The position numbers and the translations under genes are program-made. A stretch of 64,000 nt of DNA from Flavihumibacter fluvii (GTDB lineage: Bacteria; Bacteroidota; Bacteroidia; Chitinophagales; Chitinophagaceae): the NCBI RefSeq assembly GCF_018595675.2, contig NZ_CP092333.1, positions 2,442,001-2,506,000 of the forward strand. The letters are read 5' to 3'. Shown in pieces: positions 1-8,131 of this stretch; position 1 is the stretch's first letter, and each line of letters opens with the position of its first letter. The notes under the pieces were generated by a model, which worked only from the letters and a program-made list of their open reading frames with translations, was not told the DNA's origin and searched no databases.

Positions 1-1181
1 AGGAAGAGGGCATTGATAGCATCCAGCGACCAGTATAAGGGGGAAACCTTCGCCAGTTGTTGCAACCCGACCGGCAGGATTTCCACAGGTACCCAGATGC
101 CGCCAATAGCGGAAAGGATTACGATGGAAATGGCGCCAAACGGCAGGGCCTGGTTGGGTGTTTGGAAAAGTGCCCCAATGCAAACCCCGTAAGCGGTGGC
201 TGTCATGGCGATCACCATGGCCGTCAGCAGCACACTTACCGGTGCATGGCCCAAATACAAGGCGGGCAATCCCAACCGGGGGAGGATGACCAGTCCAGCA
301 CCTATCATGAGGTAAAACTGGGCGATGCCCAGTAATATGTAAAAGGATAATTTGCCAAAGAGGATCGAAAAATAGGATCCCGGGATCAGCCTGATCCGCA
401 TCAGGCTCCCCTCCTCCCTTTCCCTGATCGTATTCCCGGCAATGGGAATGATGATGAAAAACAGGCCGAAAATCGCCCAGGCAGGCACATTGTGCTGCAC
501 TGAATTGGTATTGAGGTTCACTTTGGTCTCTTTATCGGCCATAAATTCCTTAATGGTGACCGCCTGCATTTTCTGTTGCAGGTCAAATTCAGGTCCAGCA
601 ACTGAATCGCTCCCCTTCATGCGATCAGACAACCGGCCCATGATCATTTCAGCCTGCACCTTGGTGAGTTGTTTGTCGAGCGCTGCCTGTAAAGACATTT
701 TCATGGCCTGCTTGGTCACCGGGTCAAAATAGAGTTCAAGGGTTGCAGTCCGGGTTTCCCTTTGCGGCAGTTTGCCGCTGATGCCCATCCGGCCAGCCAT
801 ATCATTGGCCACCTGGTTTGCACTGTTCACCACTTCGGCAGTAATGCCCGGCGGGACGATAATAGCGATCTTGTATTCACCCGACTGCACCAATTTACGG
901 GCCCGGTCGGCATCAACCGGCAGGCCTTCCACAGTTTTCACCAGCCTGAACTGGGGAATGGCCGACAAACCTTCTTCCATCTTTCCTGCCAGCCGGCCAC
1001 TGTCATTATCTACCCAAAGGATATCGAATGTAATATCCTGGTATTCCCGGAAGGGTGCATCCTGGATCAATGCCATGATAACAGTGAGGGCCAGCGGCAT
1101 CAGGAATAGCAGGGCCACACCTGTAAGGTCTTTCCGGAAAAGCCGGAACTCATTGATCAGGGTGGCTATTACTTTTCGCAT
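1..1181 (-). CDS. ABC-2 type transporter permease, C-terminal part beyond the window
   Basis: Reading leftwards from the ATG at 1179-1181 the frame stays open to base 1, giving about 393 residues. The protein starts MRKVIATLINEFRLF, has one membrane segment near residues 20-40, a long extracytoplasmic stretch, and then several membrane segments from about residue 225 on. This is the layout of ABC-2/NatB-type permeases with a large periplasmic loop, and the last visible part (LYWSLDAINALFL) resembles the end region of that family. Its start lies one base after the stop of the ATPase gene, so the two are translationally linked and surely form one exporter. Position in the pigment operon suggests export or membrane placement of a lipid or pigment intermediate; this is inference. 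The C-terminus is not visible. Confidence 0.85.
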   Translation of the reverse strand, partial: MRKVIATLINEFRLFRKDLTGVALLFLMPLALTVIMALIQDAPFREYQDITFDILWVDNDSGRLAGKMEEGLSAIPQFRLVKTVEGLPVDADRARKLVQSGEYKIAIIVPPGITAEVVNSANQVANDMAGRMGISGKLPQRETRTATLELYFDPVTKQAMKMSLQAALDKQLTKVQAEMIMGRLSDRMKGSDSVAGPEFDLQQKMQAVTIKEFMADKETKVNLNTNSVQHNVPAWAIFGLFFIIIPIAGNTIREREEGSLMRIRLIPGSYFSILFGKLSFYILLGIAQFYLMIGAGLVILPRLGLPALYLGHAPVSVLLTAMVIAMTATAYGVCIGALFQTPNQALPFGAISIVILSAIGGIWVPVEILPVGLQQLAKVSPLYWSLDAINALF

Positions 1182-1182
1182 A

Positions 1183-1917
1183 TCAGTCTCTTACAGAATA
1201 TCCGGTGAGGTTTAAAAAGACCTGTTCCAGGCTGGCCGCACCATGGAGATGCATCAGTTCACCCGGCCGACCCTTTACTACCAGTTTACCATGGTCGATA
1301 ATGGCTACCACATCGCAAAGCTGCTGGGCTTCTTCCAGTAAATGCGAAGTGTACATGATCGAGTGCCCATGCTGGTGGTATTCCTTCAGGAACTTCAAAA
1401 TCATATTGCGGCTTTGCACATCCACGCCGGCCGTGGGCTCATCCAATATCAGCAATTGCGGATCATGCAGCAATGACGCGATGATATTGGCCCTTCTTTT
1501 CATACCGCCCGAAAAATGGCGGATGGCCTTGCCCGCACTTTTTTCCAGGCCGAAAAGGTGCAGGTAAAAAGCAATTTTTTCCCTGATCACGCTGTTTTTC
1601 AGTCCATATAATTTGCCGATATATTCGAGGTTTTCCGTTACCGTCAGGGTCGGATACAAGGCAATGGATTGTGGTACTACACCGATTGCTTTTTTAATAG
1701 CTTCCGCATCCTTGTTAATATCCATTCCCATCACTTCCACCTGGCCTTCATCCGCTTTCACCAATCCGCAGATGATAGAAATGGTTGTCGTTTTGCCGGC
1801 ACCGTTAGGTCCAAGTAAACCGGCAATGATATTATCCTCAAAATCGATGGACAACCCGCTGAGCGATGGCTCTGCGGCCTGGCGGTAAGTTTTGTGTAAA
1901 TGGCGGATGGATAACAT
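1183..1917 (-). CDS. ABC transporter ATP-binding protein
   Basis: A 244-residue nucleotide-binding domain with Walker A GPNGAGKTTT (about residues 35-44), Q-loop region GVVPQSIALYPTLT, signature FSGGMKRRANI, Walker B LLILDEPTAGVD and the switch His in TSHLLEEAQ. It is of the one-domain type that pairs with ABC-2 permeases (NatA/CcmA-like subfamily), and the permease follows directly. It sits 18 bases after the BtrH-like gene in the same operon. Expected to power export across the inner membrane; the substrate is not shown by sequence. Confidence 0.93.
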   Translation of the reverse strand: MLSIRHLHKTYRQAAEPSLSGLSIDFEDNIIAGLLGPNGAGKTTTISIICGLVKADEGQVEVMGMDINKDAEAIKKAIGVVPQSIALYPTLTVTENLEYIGKLYGLKNSVIREKIAFYLHLFGLEKSAGKAIRHFSGGMKRRANIIASLLHDPQLLILDEPTAGVDVQSRNMILKFLKEYHQHGHSIMYTSHLLEEAQQLCDVVAIIDHGKLVVKGRPGELMHLHGAASLEQVFLNLTGYSVRD

Positions 1918-1935: not shown

Positions 1936-2937
1936 TTATAGCAGTTTTTTTAACCGGGTGAAAAAGTCTTTCTCCCGCACCGATAAAGCAATGAGCATAT
2001 CGCCCAGTTCAGTATAGGTGGATAGATTTCCCGAGCGGTCTTTCATTACCCGTGCTGCCGCAAAAGCAAAATTGCGCCACTCATCACCGATCTTCGTCAT
2101 GTCGGCAGACATCTGTGCGAAGGCCTGGTTTTTAGTGATCACTGCAGCTTCCTGCAAAAATGCTGCATACAGAAAACGAAAACCAGCACCGCCCGTGCCG
2201 ATCTCTTCCTGCATCCGGATGATATTACCGATGAACAATCCGGCTTTTCGTGCGCCCAGCTTTTCAGGGTATTTCCTGATACGTTTGCCCAGGTAGGCAA
2301 TGCCGCGGTATCCGAAAAACGGGGGTGGCGATTGCAACATGAAGAAGCAGGTCTTTTTCATGCCACTTAATATCGCCGGTGTAAGGTCTTTGTTTCCCAA
2401 TGTTTGCACCGGGTAATACATTTTACCATTAGGTGCCGGGAAGCCTTTTGCGAATCGTGCTTTTTCCAACTCATTACCCGGCAGCCGGGTAATATTTTCC
2501 ATAACCGGGTCAGAGATCAGGTAATCGTTTCCCTCTTTGCCATAGGCGATCAGGTTATGTGCGTTAAAATGGAAACGCCAGGCTTCGGGAAAATAACTGA
2601 GGTAGTAGACACTGCTCTGCATGCCGACCGGTTTGTTGGCGGCCAGCGCAGCATCTAAAGCGGCCATGCCTTTTTCCGGGGATGAAAAAGCTTCTACCTT
2701 CATTTTAACCCCCAGTTCCTTGCAGACCCTTTTGAAGATGTAGCCGGGCCAGATCCGGAAGGTGGTGCCGGGAACACCATTCACTTTTAAAAATGGCAGG
2801 TGACCGAAAAAAAGTCCGGCACCAATACCGAATGCCAGGGGTTCTGTAAGTGTAATGCCGGCATGCTGCAGCAGGCTAAGGGTGACCCCGCTTTCGCAGT
2901 GGGCAGATTGTTTATGGTGAAAATTTTCAATGATCAT
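1936..2937 (-). CDS. BtrH-like protein (BtrH N-terminal domain), candidate acyltransferase
   Basis: A 333-residue protein whose N-terminal half matches the BtrH_N family as I recognise it: SAHCESG near the start (Cys14), FNAHNLIAYG (His127) and DYLISDPV (Asp143), an order that fits a papain/C39-like Cys-His-Asp triad. The C-terminal half is helical and resembles the DUF4872 region often fused to it. BtrH of butirosin biosynthesis moves an acyl group from an acyl carrier protein to an amine. Here the gene sits among dialkylresorcinol genes and opposite an ACP-ketosynthase arm, so an acyl transfer from ACP onto the resorcinol hydroxyl, making the flexirubin ester, is a reasonable proposal (inference). 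No signal peptide; cytoplasmic. Confidence 0.75.
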   Translation of the reverse strand: MIIENFHHKQSAHCESGVTLSLLQHAGITLTEPLAFGIGAGLFFGHLPFLKVNGVPGTTFRIWPGYIFKRVCKELGVKMKVEAFSSPEKGMAALDAALAANKPVGMQSSVYYLSYFPEAWRFHFNAHNLIAYGKEGNDYLISDPVMENITRLPGNELEKARFAKGFPAPNGKMYYPVQTLGNKDLTPAILSGMKKTCFFMLQSPPPFFGYRGIAYLGKRIRKYPEKLGARKAGLFIGNIIRMQEEIGTGGAGFRFLYAAFLQEAAVITKNQAFAQMSADMTKIGDEWRNFAFAAARVMKDRSGNLSTYTELGDMLIALSVREKDFFTRLKKLL

Positions 2938-2955: not shown

Positions 2956-3369
2956 TTATGGCTGGCCGGGAATATGCTTCAGTTGGTCAACAGGTATATT
3001 GAACACCGAAGCATAGCGCTCTAATTGTTGTGCAGATAATTTTCTAAAGACCCGCATACGCAGGTGTCTTTTCACCCTGAACCGCCAATAGCCAACATAT
3101 TGCGCCAATGTAGGCAGGTCCATCAGGCTTTTTTCCATATAATAGGCAATCGGGCTCAGTTCGCCGGCGATCACTTGTTGGCGGGTTTGCTCGATCTTTT
3201 CATCAATACTTTCCCAGGCCTGGCTCATGGCGAGGTTCTCCGCATCCCAGCCGGTATACTTTGTCGTTTCATAGTTCCCGCTATTATCGGTCACATACAA
3301 TACTTTCACCAGGCTGTTATCCTGGCCATGTATGATCTTTTTGTCCTGCGGAACCTCGTCTTTATTCAT
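2956..3369 (-). CDS. Conserved hypothetical protein of the dialkylresorcinol/flexirubin operon
   Basis: 137 residues, no signal peptide or membrane segment, mixed charged sequence with a basic patch near the middle (WRFRVKRHLRMRVFRK). I do not recognise a named domain. It lies 3 bases after darB and 18 bases before the BtrH-like gene, so it is part of the operon and most likely needed for pigment formation or control. The second half (LSAQQLERYASVFNIPVDQL) looks like a small helical unit, possibly a binding adaptor. Function unknown. Confidence 0.7.
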   Translation of the reverse strand: MNKDEVPQDKKIIHGQDNSLVKVLYVTDNSGNYETTKYTGWDAENLAMSQAWESIDEKIEQTRQQVIAGELSPIAYYMEKSLMDLPTLAQYVGYWRFRVKRHLRMRVFRKLSAQQLERYASVFNIPVDQLKHIPGQP

Positions 3370-3372
3370 AGC

Positions 3373-4509
3373 CTAAACTACTGTAAAATGTGCGTATATA
3401 TAAGTGAACCTTGCACTTTCCGGAATCATCACCAGTAATGTATCGCCTTTCTTCAATTTACCACCGTTGAACATTTCTTCCAGCATCAGGAATGGAGAGA
3501 CGCTACCCACATTACCCACCCGCACCAGGTTGGTGAACCATTTTTCAGGCGGTACGCGCAACCCGATTTTTTCCTGCTCTTTCAAAATGATATCGCGGAA
3601 AAATTCCGATGACAGATGTGGCAGGTACCAGGTGAGTTTATCTACCGTGAGGTGGTGTTTGTCAAATACTTCTTTCATAAACTGGCCGCCCTTGGGAACA
3701 ATATTCACCCCCAGCAGGCGGGTATCCTGTTTGAAAGAAAAAATACTTTTGTGGCCCCACTCTTCCGGTGTGAATTCCGGGAAGCCGGTAAGGCTGCCAT
3801 CCGGACTGCGTATAGCCCCTGAATACATACAGGAGGGCAACTCGTTAGCGTACGATTTGATATCGATGAAATCAATCCGAAGGGAGTTGCCGTTTTTATT
3901 GGGTTCATTCTGTAATAAAGCTGCCCCTGCGCCATCACTCAGCATCCATCGCATGAAATCCTTTTCAAAAGCGATCATAGGGTTGGCCTCAAGTTCTTTC
4001 AGCTTTTCCGCTTCCGCATCAAATTTATCGTGGCGCAACCAGGTTGATACTTTCTCTGAAGCAAAAGCAACCGCATTATTGATATCGCCGTGCTTCACGG
4101 AAAGCCAGGCGTATTTCATGGCCTGGAACCCCGATGCACAGGAACTGCTGATGGAAGAAATTTCAATGGGAGGACAGCCAAGCTCTCCATGCACCATGGC
4201 TGTATGGCTGGGCAATAATTGTTCCGGCGACATGGTGCCTCCGGTCAGTAGCTGGATATCGCTTTTCGTGAAATCTGCATCCAATAAACCCTCAATGGCT
4301 TTGGCTGCCAGCTGGGCATTGGTATGGGTGCTTTTACCTTCCTTATCTATGGCGTAATAGCGTGATGTAATCTTATTATTTCCCAGGATTTTCAACCTTG
4401 CACGGGACGGCCTCCCATCAACCATACCAAGGTATAGTTCTATATCATCATTGCTAACCGGATCATTGGGTAAAAACTTCGACAGCCTGTTTACGAACAC
4501 CTCTCCCAT
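3373..4509 (-). CDS. darB: StlD/DarB-family beta-ketoacyl synthase III (dialkylresorcinol synthesis)
   Basis: A 378-residue FabH-like thiolase-fold enzyme. The catalytic triad is visible: Cys124 in SSSCASGFQ, His298 in WYLPHLSSE and Asn333 in VGNVGSVS. The N-terminus (FVNRLSKFLPNDPVSN) and long insertions are typical of the StlD/DarB branch rather than of primary-metabolism FabH. DarB condenses two beta-ketoacyl chains with the partner enzyme to a 1,3-cyclohexanedione that is aromatised to a 2,5-dialkylresorcinol. The partner gene darA lies 44 bases upstream on the same strand, which settles the assignment. In Bacteroidota these enzymes supply the alcohol part of flexirubin pigments. Confidence 0.88.
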   Translation of the reverse strand: MGEVFVNRLSKFLPNDPVSNDDIELYLGMVDGRPSRARLKILGNNKITSRYYAIDKEGKSTHTNAQLAAKAIEGLLDADFTKSDIQLLTGGTMSPEQLLPSHTAMVHGELGCPPIEISSISSSCASGFQAMKYAWLSVKHGDINNAVAFASEKVSTWLRHDKFDAEAEKLKELEANPMIAFEKDFMRWMLSDGAGAALLQNEPNKNGNSLRIDFIDIKSYANELPSCMYSGAIRSPDGSLTGFPEFTPEEWGHKSIFSFKQDTRLLGVNIVPKGGQFMKEVFDKHHLTVDKLTWYLPHLSSEFFRDIILKEQEKIGLRVPPEKWFTNLVRVGNVGSVSPFLMLEEMFNGGKLKKGDTLLVMIPESARFTYIYAHFTVV

Positions 4510-4553: not shown

Positions 4554-5474
4554 TTAGATTACATCGCTTTCATAACGAATACCTTTAAAATAATTTATCT
4601 GCTCCCGGAAGGATTTCTTCCTGAAAATGCTGACCAGTTTTGCAGACAATCCGGAAATTGGCGATAACACAAAGATACCAGTCAGTAATAATCTTTTAAA
4701 GAGTTTTACACGGGGAAGCCTTTCTGCATCTCCAGGCCCGCCTTTCTCCCTGATATAGGTAGCGAATTTCCTGAAATTGGTAATGCCTCTTTTTTCAAGG
4801 ACGATAAGGGTTGGCTTCAGGTGTACTGCACCTGCTGCCAATAATTTTTCCTGCAGCTGGTTAGTTTGCCCTGATACCATTGCATTTGCAATGATTGGAC
4901 CAAACCTGGATGCGGCTTCAATGTCACGGGTCTGTACGCCTGCTTCAGGCAACCAGCGGCCGGCCTCTTTCTGGCCTTTAAATGCCCATCGTATTACAGT
5001 AAACAATGAGATGAGGTTGTGGTTTGTATCAGCCAGCACAATATTACCAATATGCCTGGCCCCCAGCTGTTGCAGGTGGGCTTTGACTTTTTCCTGGGCA
5101 TTCAACCACATATTCCGGGAGCCAACTACTGTGATGACTGGTTTACCGGAAAGAATTTTTGCGGCATCACTCTTCAGGAAACTGGTTGTAGGAATAGAAG
5201 GGGATAAATACCAGGGCTGGTAACCAAGGATAACCAGGTCGTAGGGTTTATCAGGAATCGTGATCGGTTTCAATTCAACCGGGATTTCTTTAACGCATTC
5301 GGGCATGGCATCAAAAAACTGGTCGCTGGTCCATGGAAAAGGAAAATCCTTTACTGGTTTATATTCAATTGTTGTAATATCAGTTTCTCCTTTAACAGAA
5401 GAAAACATGTTCTTCAGGATTTCCCCCAGCTGTCCGCTTTGCGAATAATAGATAACAAGGATATTCAATGCCAT
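4554..5474 (-). CDS. darA: Dialkylresorcinol condensing enzyme DarA (flavodoxin-like N-terminus)
   Basis: 306 residues. It begins with a flavodoxin-like beta strand and loop, LNILVIYYSQSGQL, followed by an alternating alpha/beta domain (DLVILGYQPWYLSP, PVITVVGSRNMW, GNIVLADTNHN), and ends with a less ordered region after about residue 225. This arrangement is what Bacteroidota proteins annotated as dialkylresorcinol condensing enzyme show. First gene of the leftward arm, with darB next, and divergent from the ACP gene. Known for the family: DarA and DarB suffice to make the resorcinol core from acyl precursors. Exact reaction share between DarA and DarB cannot be read from sequence. Confidence 0.82.
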   Translation of the reverse strand: MALNILVIYYSQSGQLGEILKNMFSSVKGETDITTIEYKPVKDFPFPWTSDQFFDAMPECVKEIPVELKPITIPDKPYDLVILGYQPWYLSPSIPTTSFLKSDAAKILSGKPVITVVGSRNMWLNAQEKVKAHLQQLGARHIGNIVLADTNHNLISLFTVIRWAFKGQKEAGRWLPEAGVQTRDIEAASRFGPIIANAMVSGQTNQLQEKLLAAGAVHLKPTLIVLEKRGITNFRKFATYIREKGGPGDAERLPRVKLFKRLLLTGIFVLSPISGLSAKLVSIFRKKSFREQINYFKGIRYESDVI

Positions 5475-5569: not shown

Positions 5570-5577
5570 TATTTTTG
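5570..5577 (+). promoter_or_regulatory. Bacteroidota -7 promoter element upstream of the ACP gene
   Basis: TATTTTTG fits the consensus TAnnTTTG exactly and lies 24 bases before the ACP start codon. A T-run ending in TTTG at 5538-5541 lies further upstream than the usual spacing (28 instead of about 20 bases), so only the -7 element is convincing. Confidence 0.45.
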
Positions 5578-5601
5578 ATCACCATAAATAAACTGCCTTG
5601 C

Positions 5602-5859
5602 ATGGATAATTTTAAACGAGAGTTGAAACTTGCGATCATCGAATCACTGAACTTGCAGGGAATGTTACCCGAAGAAATTGATGATAAAGCCCCGCTGTTT
5701 GGAGAAGGGCTTGGGTTAGACAGTATTGATTCCCTTGAAATGATTGTATTACTGGAACGTAATTATGGTATAAAAATAGAAGATCCCCGCGAAGGACGTC
5801 GGGTATTTGAATCCATAGATGTGATGGCCGACTATATACAGGCTAACAGAAAAAAATAA
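5602..5859 (+). CDS. Acyl carrier protein of the pigment locus
   Basis: 85 residues from the ATG at 5602. The phosphopantetheine attachment site is in GLDSIDSLEM, with the modified Ser after Asp (GLDSIDS); the rest is the small four-helix ACP fold with many acidic residues. An upstream in-frame TTG exists at 5575 but overlaps the promoter element, so the ATG is preferred. It is followed after 3 bases by a ketosynthase and then a ketosynthase-like chain-length partner, so this ACP most likely carries the growing polyene or fatty chain of a type II synthase. Confidence 0.88.
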   Translation: MDNFKRELKLAIIESLNLQGMLPEEIDDKAPLFGEGLGLDSIDSLEMIVLLERNYGIKIEDPREGRRVFESIDVMADYIQANRKK

Positions 5860-5862
5860 GTC

Positions 5863-7071
5863 ATGCGCACTGTGTATGTGACTGGTGTGGGGATAGTATC
5901 CGCTATTGGAATTGGGGTTGCTGCTAACTGGTCTGCATTGAATGCTATGACTACCGGCATTTCTTATTCGAAGCACCTCAACAGCGTATTGAAAAATATG
6001 CTGCCTGCTGCGGAAGTAGCAGCGACTACCGCGGAATTAGCAGGGATTTATGGCGATACCGGCAATTTGTTTCCCAACCGGGTAAACATCATGGCCGCAA
6101 TTGCGTTGCGGGAAGCCATCAAAAATAACCTGGTAGCAGCAACAGCCGGTCAGTTTGGATTTATCAACGCCAGCTCGGTTGGGGGAATGGGTGATGTGGA
6201 AGATATTTATGATGCGTTGGTTGACCCGGACAACCATGATGAAAAAATTATACCACTAGGTGAAACGATGGATTGTGGCTTTGGGACCCAGGAACTTGCA
6301 CGGCATTTTAACCTCACTAATTTTATCGGGACCATCAGCACAGCCTGTTCATCATCGGCAAATGCACTGATCTTTGGTGCACGCCTCATCAGGAATGGCC
6401 TGCTGGAGGGTGTTGTTTGCGGCGGGGCAGATACACTCACAAGATTTACCTTAAATGGATTTAACAGCCTTAAGAATATCGACAAAAATCATTGCCGTCC
6501 ATTTGATGCCAACCGGAATGGCTTAAATCTTGGGGAGGGCGCAGCTTACCTCGTGCTTGAATCTGATGAAATGCTGCAGAAAACCGGAAGTAAACCCCTT
6601 GCCATCTTCAGCGGATGCTGCAATTATAATGAAGCTTTTCACCCTACCGCACCATCCCCTGAAGGCGAAGGCGCCTACCAGGCCATGAAAGGTGCCTTAG
6701 ATTTAGCCGGATTGTCGCCGGAGGATATTTCTTATATCAATGCACATGGTACAGCCACCCTTAATAATGACCTGGCGGAAGCTTTTGCGTTTCACCGGCT
6801 ATTTGGTGATCAGTTGCCTGTATTCAGCTCAACAAAATGTTATACCGGCCATACACTTGCCGCAGCAGGCGCCATTGAAGCGGTGTTTTCTGTGTTAAGT
6901 TTAAAACACCAGGAATTGTATCCGGTATTGAATTTTGATACGCCAATGCCTGAATTAAACCTCGTACCCCTGACAACTGTGGAGCGAAATATTCCCGTAA
7001 AACATATCTTGAGCAATTCATTTGGTTTTGGCGGAAACAATGCCAGCCTCTTATTCAGCAGGTATGATTAA
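5863..7071 (+). CDS. Beta-ketoacyl-ACP synthase (FabF-type, KS-alpha) of the pigment locus
   Basis: 402 residues, thiolase fold of the FabB/FabF class. The catalytic Cys162 (ISTACSSSANA), His295 (INAHGTAT) and His330 (CYTGHTLAAAGA) are all present, as is the C-terminal glycine-rich NSFGFGGNNA. It starts 3 bases after the ACP stop, and its last 8 bases overlap the next gene, which encodes a similar protein without the active Cys. Such KS-alpha/KS-beta pairs occur in type II polyketide and aryl polyene synthases. It should elongate the chain on the neighbouring ACP. Confidence 0.88.
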   Translation: MRTVYVTGVGIVSAIGIGVAANWSALNAMTTGISYSKHLNSVLKNMLPAAEVAATTAELAGIYGDTGNLFPNRVNIMAAIALREAIKNNLVAATAGQFGFINASSVGGMGDVEDIYDALVDPDNHDEKIIPLGETMDCGFGTQELARHFNLTNFIGTISTACSSSANALIFGARLIRNGLLEGVVCGGADTLTRFTLNGFNSLKNIDKNHCRPFDANRNGLNLGEGAAYLVLESDEMLQKTGSKPLAIFSGCCNYNEAFHPTAPSPEGEGAYQAMKGALDLAGLSPEDISYINAHGTATLNNDLAEAFAFHRLFGDQLPVFSSTKCYTGHTLAAAGAIEAVFSVLSLKHQELYPVLNFDTPMPELNLVPLTTVERNIPVKHILSNSFGFGGNNASLLFSRYD

Positions 7072-8131
7072 GCCGGTGTACATACGAGCGGCCCGGGCCA
7101 TCTGCGCCCAGGAAACATTTCCGCAAAATGAACTGCCTGACCAGCTGGCAGATGCCACGAATAATACCCTGTTTTACAAGCACCCGGAATACAGTAAATA
7201 TTTCACGATCATGCAGCTACGGCGCATGAGCAGGATAACCCGGACAGGGCTGGTGGCAGCTATTGAATGCCTGGCAGATGCTGGTATTAAAAAACCGGAA
7301 GCCATTATTACCGGAACAGGAAAGGGCAGCATCACGGATACTGAAAAATTCATCCGCAATATCCAGGAGTTTAAGGAAGGCACTTTAAATCCGACACCGT
7401 TTATTCAGTCCACTTATAATTCATTAAACGGACTGATCAGCCTGCACCACGATACCAGTTGCTACAATACCACATTTGTACACCGGGGGCATTCGCTTGA
7501 ACTCGCACTTACAGACGCGATGTTACTATTCAATGAAGGGAGCATAGAAAATGCGCTGGTAGGTTCATTTGAAGAAATTTCACCGGAGCATTTTATCATC
7601 AAGCAGAAACTGGGGTATTGGAAAAAGGAACCGGTTTCCTGCAAGGAATTACTGGCTGTTGAAACGCCGGGAAGCATTGCCGGGGAAGGCACATTCTTTT
7701 TTGTTTTACAAAAAGGGCCGGAAGGAGCCATGGCGAAACTACATGCAATGCGCTTATTGTTTGAGCCAACGGAAGAAATACTCACAGAAGCCATAAAACA
7801 GCTGCTGGAAGACCATCAGCTCAGTTCCGGAGATATCGACCTTGTATTTTTAGGTGACAATGGTGATATAAGGCATAAAGGAAATTATATGGCTGTTGCA
7901 GGAATGTTTTCGAATGAAGTGCATGTGCAAGGGTTCAAACAGGCTTGCGGGGAATTTGATACAGCGGCCGGGTTTGCCCTTTGGCTGGCGGTCCTGGCAG
8001 CAAAAAACCAGCGGATCTATGAAGGTTTAACCATCAGGCAAGGGAATCGGCCTTCCTATAAAAATATCCTGATTTACAACAATTACAATGGTCAGCAGCA
8101 TTCCATTTACCTGGTGCAGCAGGCGCATTAA
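7064..8131 (+). CDS. Ketosynthase-like protein lacking the catalytic Cys (chain-length-factor type, KS-beta)
   Basis: 355 residues from the ATG at 7064, which overlaps the stop region of the KS-alpha gene by 8 bases. The thiolase-like layout is kept (ATNNTLFYKHPEYSKYFTIM, AAIECLADAGI, ALVGSFEEISPEH, AGEGTFFFVL), but where KS-alpha has TACSSSANAL this protein has FVHRGHSLELAL, so the nucleophile is missing, and the two active His motifs are not recognisable. This is the pattern of chain-length factors, which form a heterodimer with KS-alpha. Known for the fold; role in this locus inferred. An upstream in-frame ATG at 7022 would add 14 residues but lies inside KS-alpha. Confidence 0.78.
   Translation: MIKPVYIRAARAICAQETFPQNELPDQLADATNNTLFYKHPEYSKYFTIMQLRRMSRITRTGLVAAIECLADAGIKKPEAIITGTGKGSITDTEKFIRNIQEFKEGTLNPTPFIQSTYNSLNGLISLHHDTSCYNTTFVHRGHSLELALTDAMLLFNEGSIENALVGSFEEISPEHFIIKQKLGYWKKEPVSCKELLAVETPGSIAGEGTFFFVLQKGPEGAMAKLHAMRLLFEPTEEILTEAIKQLLEDHQLSSGDIDLVFLGDNGDIRHKGNYMAVAGMFSNEVHVQGFKQACGEFDTAAGFALWLAVLAAKNQRIYEGLTIRQGNRPSYKNILIYNNYNGQQHSIYLVQQAH

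Follow-up and report, generated by a model that had tools for sequence, protein, structure and literature searches.

Flexirubins, orange bacterial pigments, have long served as a chemotaxonomic marker of the Bacteroidota. Here we examine a 64,000-nucleotide stretch of the Flavihumibacter fluvii chromosome (contig NZ_CP092333.1, positions 2,442,001 to 2,506,000; G000:C1:2442001-2506000), referred to below as the window, and within it the gene darH, whose product probably makes the flexirubin ester by joining its polyene and dialkylresorcinol (DAR) halves. A first-pass annotation of this DNA had proposed DarH as the ester-forming acyltransferase, and the proposal gains indirect support from co-occurrence across genomes, conservation of a catalytic triad, a structure model and the operon in which the gene lies. 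In the available literature, the enzyme that joins the two halves has so far only been guessed at, the printed guess being a different protein, FlxW; the comparisons described below rank DarH over FlxW as the ester former.

Two Pfam domains make up most of DarH. BtrH_N (PF14399) covers residues 13-144 with the whole profile aligned (3.4e-45, 154 bits against a cut-off of 29.7), and is followed by DUF4872 (PF16169) at residues 156-329 (6e-55, 186.1 bits, cut-off 28). The protein is also a member of the NCBIfam equivalog NF053550 (DarH_acyl, ‘BtrH-related acyltransferase DarH’), from which no difference was seen; its score of 456.5 bits exceeds the cut-off of 300, and the match spans profile positions 1-325 of 325. 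This cysteine acyltransferase family is already named in NCBIfam, and the ester-forming idea is partly anticipated there. These matches, along with the positions of the residues in the sequence, bear out the earlier description of a BtrH_N-type protein with Cys14, His127 and Asp143. Across the whole 5.0-Mb genome DarH is the only BtrH_N match, and it has no match to either the AAT (PF03417) or the C45_proenzyme domain at E 0.01.

The three residues are invariant in all 41 rows of one alignment and in all 111 rows of a wider one that includes four divergent paralogues and in which some rows represent the same genome twice. In the structure model (predicted local distance difference test score, pLDDT, 90.8), DarH has a papain-like fold with the triad in papain order: Cys14 opens a helix, His127 opens a strand and Asp143 comes right after the next strand. 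The best matches of the model among solved structures are the carrier-protein enzymes CtaG, AziU3 and CcbD, nearly over the full length. The predicted order of the residues and these fold matches favour the triad put forward in the first-pass annotation. The top sequence matches in the PDB were to coiled-coil designs (E down to 5.8e-07, in the C-terminal helices) and were taken as chance. Separately, divergent proteins with BtrH_N and DUF4872 domains occur in three genomes (L044, L045 and L046, of G158, G269 and G210); they are 28-29% identical to DarH and keep the Cys and His, and no dar genes lie nearby.

The distribution of DarH was surveyed in 296 Bacteroidota genomes with four markers: DarH, its putative partner DarG, the ketosynthase DarB and the polyene exporter. 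DarH exceeded its cut-off in 23 genomes (24 with any match), DarG in exactly the same 23, and DarB in 24, namely those 23 plus G238. The polyene exporter (E 1e-25) was found in 24 genomes, 22 of them with DarH, the exceptions being G118 and G238; G099 is the sole surveyed DarH genome with no exporter match at this threshold. The family is thus present with DarB in 23 of 24 survey genomes, rather than absent from most flexirubin loci. Within the genus g18, DarH and DarB are both present in ten genomes and both absent from seven, so the match between the two is not a single inherited event. DarB in G238 is above its cut-off (488.7 bits), lies beside a TetR-type gene (locus L036), and was accompanied by no DarA in the stretches fetched, to which the DarA profile search was confined; G238 was therefore treated as DAR-less. 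If it is counted as a DAR genome, one of the 24 DarB genomes is without DarH. DarB-like proteins of 616-645 residues in G182, G254 and G280 were under the DarB cut-off and excluded from the DAR counts. Fisher values for these co-occurrences disregard relatedness and are not relied on.

Local gene order was examined in 80 named loci, the best 80 of 571 confirmed relatives, and so leaning toward close relatives. DarG adjoins DarH in 79 of these loci, and in 71 the two are separated by at most 20 bp or overlap (with starts taken from the longest open reading frames, ORFs). DarB lies within 10 kb of DarH in 61 loci and DarA in 59. Among the other 19, a full DarB is encoded elsewhere in 17, a fragment under the cut-off in one, and none in one (a 2.8-Mb assembly). 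In Flavobacterium and most other Flavobacteriaceae loci of this set, the dar operon lies within the polyene cluster.

Some genomes provide natural comparisons between DarH and FlxW. The polyene clusters of G118 and G238 contain genes for an ammonia-lyase, LPLAT, a thioesterase, the exporter and a C45-type (FlxW-like) protein, with neither DarG nor DarH in the genome; the fetched stretches yielded no DarA. In Escherichia coli CFT073, the polyene cluster has an LPLAT gene and a 4HBT-type thioesterase, and neither a BtrH (DarH) nor a C45 gene is among the annotated genes of the cluster. The reverse is seen in G099, where a compact flexirubin-like cluster (L177:11053-16855, L184) is a natural deletion experiment. 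Here darA-B-G-H-ABC-ABC-ACP (ABC, ATP-binding cassette; ACP, acyl carrier protein) adjoins genes for dehydratase-like, ketosynthase, reductase, ammonia-lyase, FlxY and AcpS proteins; the genome has no C45-type gene (E 1e-8) and no MMPL exporter (E 1e-25), and no LPLAT or glycosyltransferase match was found in the 49.7 kb read around the dar locus. The same 49.7 kb also holds a second group of ACP, ketosynthase and phosphopantetheinyl transferase genes. The C45-type gene was present in 50 of the 53 DarH genomes searched and not found in G099, G306 and G322, of which G306 is also without DarB and perhaps an incomplete assembly. Since G118 and G238 have C45 without DarH and G099 the reverse, FlxW follows the polyene genes and DarH the resorcinol genes, although most genomes have both. 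Furthermore, darA and darB together gave free resorcinol in a foreign host (PMC3992019) and polyene clusters exist without DarH, so that the likeliest role of DarH is to join the two products.

In the proposed mechanism, the finished aryl polyene would be transferred from its ACP onto Cys14, forming a thioester. With Asp143 holding it in place, His127 would activate a phenolic hydroxyl of the dialkylresorcinol made by DarB and DarA, which would then attack the Cys14 thioester in a ping-pong reaction, and the product would leave as flexirubin for export. Carrier-protein-dependent acyl transfer by DarH is carried over by analogy from CcbD, CtaG and BtrH, for which it is described in the available literature (as ping-pong for CcbD). 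We infer that the donor is polyenoyl-ACP, that the acceptor is the resorcinol oxygen, and that DarG is the partner of DarH; an ACP is encoded in the DarH locus. CtaG, from closthioamide biosynthesis (PDB 9quz and variants), is 11-12% identical to DarH and acylates a beta-alanine chain borne by another carrier protein, whereas the acceptor proposed for DarH is a phenol. CcbD/LmbD, from lincosamide biosynthesis (PDB 7yn1, 7yn2, 9dkr, 9dks), has a Cys-His-Glu triad, and its product is an aminosugar amide. BtrH of butirosin biosynthesis, the eponym of the BtrH_N domain, is an ACP:aminoglycoside acyltransferase. The aminoglycoside that BtrH acylates is an amine. If O-acylation by DarH is true, it would be a new reaction for a known fold, the relatives of known function forming amides; a fold known for amides would also yield aryl esters, which would aid the reading and engineering of aryl polyene-resorcinol hybrids.

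A more tentative idea, with the chances against it, is that DarG and DarH together form a two-protein ester synthase. DarH would then be the first member of the CtaG/CcbD/BtrH fold to O-acylate a phenol, and DarG an obligatory docking partner rather than a regulator, docking through its conserved, flexible N-terminal segment. In the model of DarG, the N-terminal 40 residues are of low confidence though conserved, and the XRE/lambda-repressor helix-turn-helix match of the C-terminal half is weak. In the database DarG is listed only as a flexirubin biosynthesis protein.

Several points weigh against DarH as the ester former. CtaG and CcbD, and BtrH as generally held, acylate amines and not phenols, and the literature available to us reports no assay, mutant or pigment experiment on DarH or a BtrH-like gene. 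The geometry of the triad is judged from predicted secondary-structure order. Neither the protein nor its profiles, searched against PDB sequences, gave a significant link to a solved acyltransferase (AziU3 only at E ~0.5-1), so kinship to CtaG, AziU3 and CcbD rests on fold. Co-occurrence also fits a role beside or after ester formation, and the DAR-only producers outside Bacteroidota, such as Pseudomonas and Photorhabdus (PMC9606717), which are predicted to be without DarH, lie outside the genomes searched. G099 weighs as evidence by its gene content. FlxW accompanies DarH almost as consistently, as the 50 of 53 genomes indicate, and is the published guess: in the proposal of Schoner et al., the ‘ligase-like’ FlxW forms the flexirubin ester (PMC3992019). 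By gene order this would be the C45-type, penicillin-acyltransferase-like protein from the end of the flx cluster, a member of an acyltransferase/hydrolase family (PF03417, NF040521), and an AAT-domain gene stands at letter W, as deduced from gene order, in Chitinophaga pinensis YS-16. That FlxW makes the ester while DarH does something else is nevertheless unlikely, as FlxW is in both Bacteroidota polyene genomes without DarG and DarH, is not found in three DarH genomes, and is not annotated in the E. coli cluster. No other acyltransferase was seen in the available literature to be proven as the ester former, and FlxW fits the distribution less well than DarH.

Other roles for DarH can be set against the same comparisons. 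A papain-fold cysteine enzyme could hydrolyse thioesters, and the DarH locus has its own ACP and ketosynthases, which would suit an enzyme that off-loads the polyene from its ACP or makes resorcinol precursors, with the ester formed elsewhere. However, G118, G238 and E. coli have polyene clusters that manage without DarH and carry a 4HBT-type thioesterase, and darAB alone sufficed for resorcinol in the foreign host (PMC3992019), so we consider such a role quite improbable. Even less probable is that one of the lipid-type acyltransferases of the flx cluster makes the ester, either the LpxL-like letter E or the PF01553 domain of the MMPL exporter. Both are O-acyltransferase families within flexirubin clusters, but E. 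coli, G118 and G238 also have an LPLAT gene in their polyene clusters, and the proposal for E. coli is that LPLAT and a glycosyltransferase/acyltransferase link the polyene to a lipid anchor (PMC8253772). Furthermore, G238 has the fused exporter but no DarH, and the exporter has no match in G099. It is barely credible that DarH is a C39-like peptidase or a catalytically dead protein acting in export with the adjacent ABC transporter, as its full-length model matches are carrier-protein enzymes and in 10 of the 80 loci, some of them on short contigs, no ABC ATPase match lies near darG and darH.

The features of the window are collected in Table 1. The minus-strand genes darA-darB-darG-darH-ABC ATPase-ABC permease are tightly packed and face a plus-strand arm of ACP and ketosynthase genes, which confirms the neighbourhood described in the first-pass annotation: DarG, DarB and a DarA-like protein on one side of DarH, ABC exporter genes on the other, and the ACP/ketosynthase arm opposite. 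DarB also scores 545 bits with NF053539, just below the cut-off of 550. The DarA-like protein has no Pfam or NCBIfam match and is 50% identical to the protein at the same place in C. pinensis YS-16.

Table 1. Features of the dar operon and the divergent arm (window positions).
Feature	Position	Strand	Description
ABC-2 permease	3..1181	-	continues beyond left end of window
ABC transporter ATPase	1183..1917	-	18 bp past darH
DarH	1936..2937	-	333 aa, ATG start, BtrH_N + DUF4872; proposed polyenoyl-ACP : dialkylresorcinol O-acyltransferase
Asp143 codon	2509..2511	-	just past strand 138-142; 16 residues after His, like H128/D144 of CtaG
His127 codon	2557..2559	-	first residue of strand 127-135
Cys14 codon	2896..2898	-	proposed nucleophile; N-terminus of helix 14-25
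DarG	2956..3369	-	137 aa, putative partner of DarH; C-terminal part like XRE helix-turn-helix
DarB	3373..4509	-	StlD/DarB-type ketosynthase; NF005293 528.6 bits (cut-off 450)
DarA-like protein	4554..5474	-	306 aa; assigned by similarity and position
ACP, divergent arm	5575..5859	+	PF00550, NF006617
Ketosynthase, divergent arm	5863..7071	+	PF00109/PF02801
Ketosynthase-like protein	7061..8131	+	PF13723; ORF may begin at 7022; probably chain-length-factor type

The polyene half is encoded ~1.1 Mb from the window, at about 3.533-3.566 Mb of G000:C1. This cluster contains genes for an ammonia-lyase, a FlxY-type ligase (623.1 bits with NF053551, whose cut-off is 520), ketosynthases, an LpxL-like acyltransferase, a thioesterase, halogenase-like and methyltransferase proteins, a glycosyltransferase, a fused MMPL exporter and a C45-type protein, the last (L034:9428-11086) matching both AAT (PF03417) and C45_proenzyme. 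With the dar operon and this distant cluster, genes for both halves of a flexirubin are present in the genome. The exporter (L034:12595-16440) is fused to acyltransferase (PF01553) and methyltransferase domains, an arrangement shared with C. pinensis and G238; the G118 exporter, from a DAR-less cluster, is just 812 residues long.

The letter of FlxW was read from gene order in C. pinensis YS-16 (G315, L168 and L174), a different strain from the published one. Its 25 letters, from ammonia-lyase (A) to ligase (Y), agree with the roles in the published text available: B and V are reductase types, C, I, N and O ketosynthase types, S dehydratase-like, P a deacetylase, Q LolA, T a glycosyltransferase and U the exporter, while the phospholipid/glycerol acyltransferase that the publication places between P and U would correspond to the acyltransferase domain of the fused exporter. 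This count takes letter D for an ACP absent from the ORF listing, and F and L are without a Pfam match. By this order FlxW would be an AAT-domain, C45-type acyltransferase.

A BtrH-like gene in a dar cluster has been described before. In the dar cluster of Azoarcus sp. BH72, Schoner et al. (2014) give darE (azo0290) as a ‘BtrH-like peptidase’; this strain is the source of arcuflavin, a polyene-dialkylresorcinol hybrid with a predicted ester bond (PMC3949708). The setting is like that of DarH; DarE is, however, betaproteobacterial and termed a peptidase, and the two are likened by description only. The names clash, as Azoarcus darG and darH are prevent-host-death-like and PilT-like genes (PMC3949708, Table 1), whereas DarG and DarH in NCBIfam are those of the window operon.

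Related genes also occur in other settings. In G280, G254 and G182 (L037, L038 and L039), the gene for the long DarB-like protein, a relative of the StlD/DarB group, is followed by an ORF of ~300 residues, these being alike by eye. A lone DarB-type ketosynthase gene beside a TetR-type regulator, with no DarA, is seen on the Bacteroidota chromosome of G238 and on Bacteroidales plasmids (L181, L183). Plasmid records gave eight DarB-like matches, and in the three examined no DarA was annotated (in incomplete gene tables) or found with a 59-protein DarA profile. A further 20 distant BtrH_N proteins came from the plasmid records, all outside Bacteroidota. Two loci, L188 (G322) and L187 (G327), from a small class that includes a metagenome-assembled genome titled Pseudomonadota, have the order DarB-DarG-DarH-ABC-ABC-ACP beside a B12-binding radical SAM enzyme. 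DarA was not found in these two stretches, and their product may not be an ordinary dialkylresorcinol; of nine genomes in the class of G322, two have DarH. The F. fluvii genome itself has two sets of ketosynthase and ketosynthase-like genes, one beside darA (window 5575-8131) and one in the polyene cluster (L033:7657-9991), and the F. johnsoniae cluster read for comparison shows one such set.
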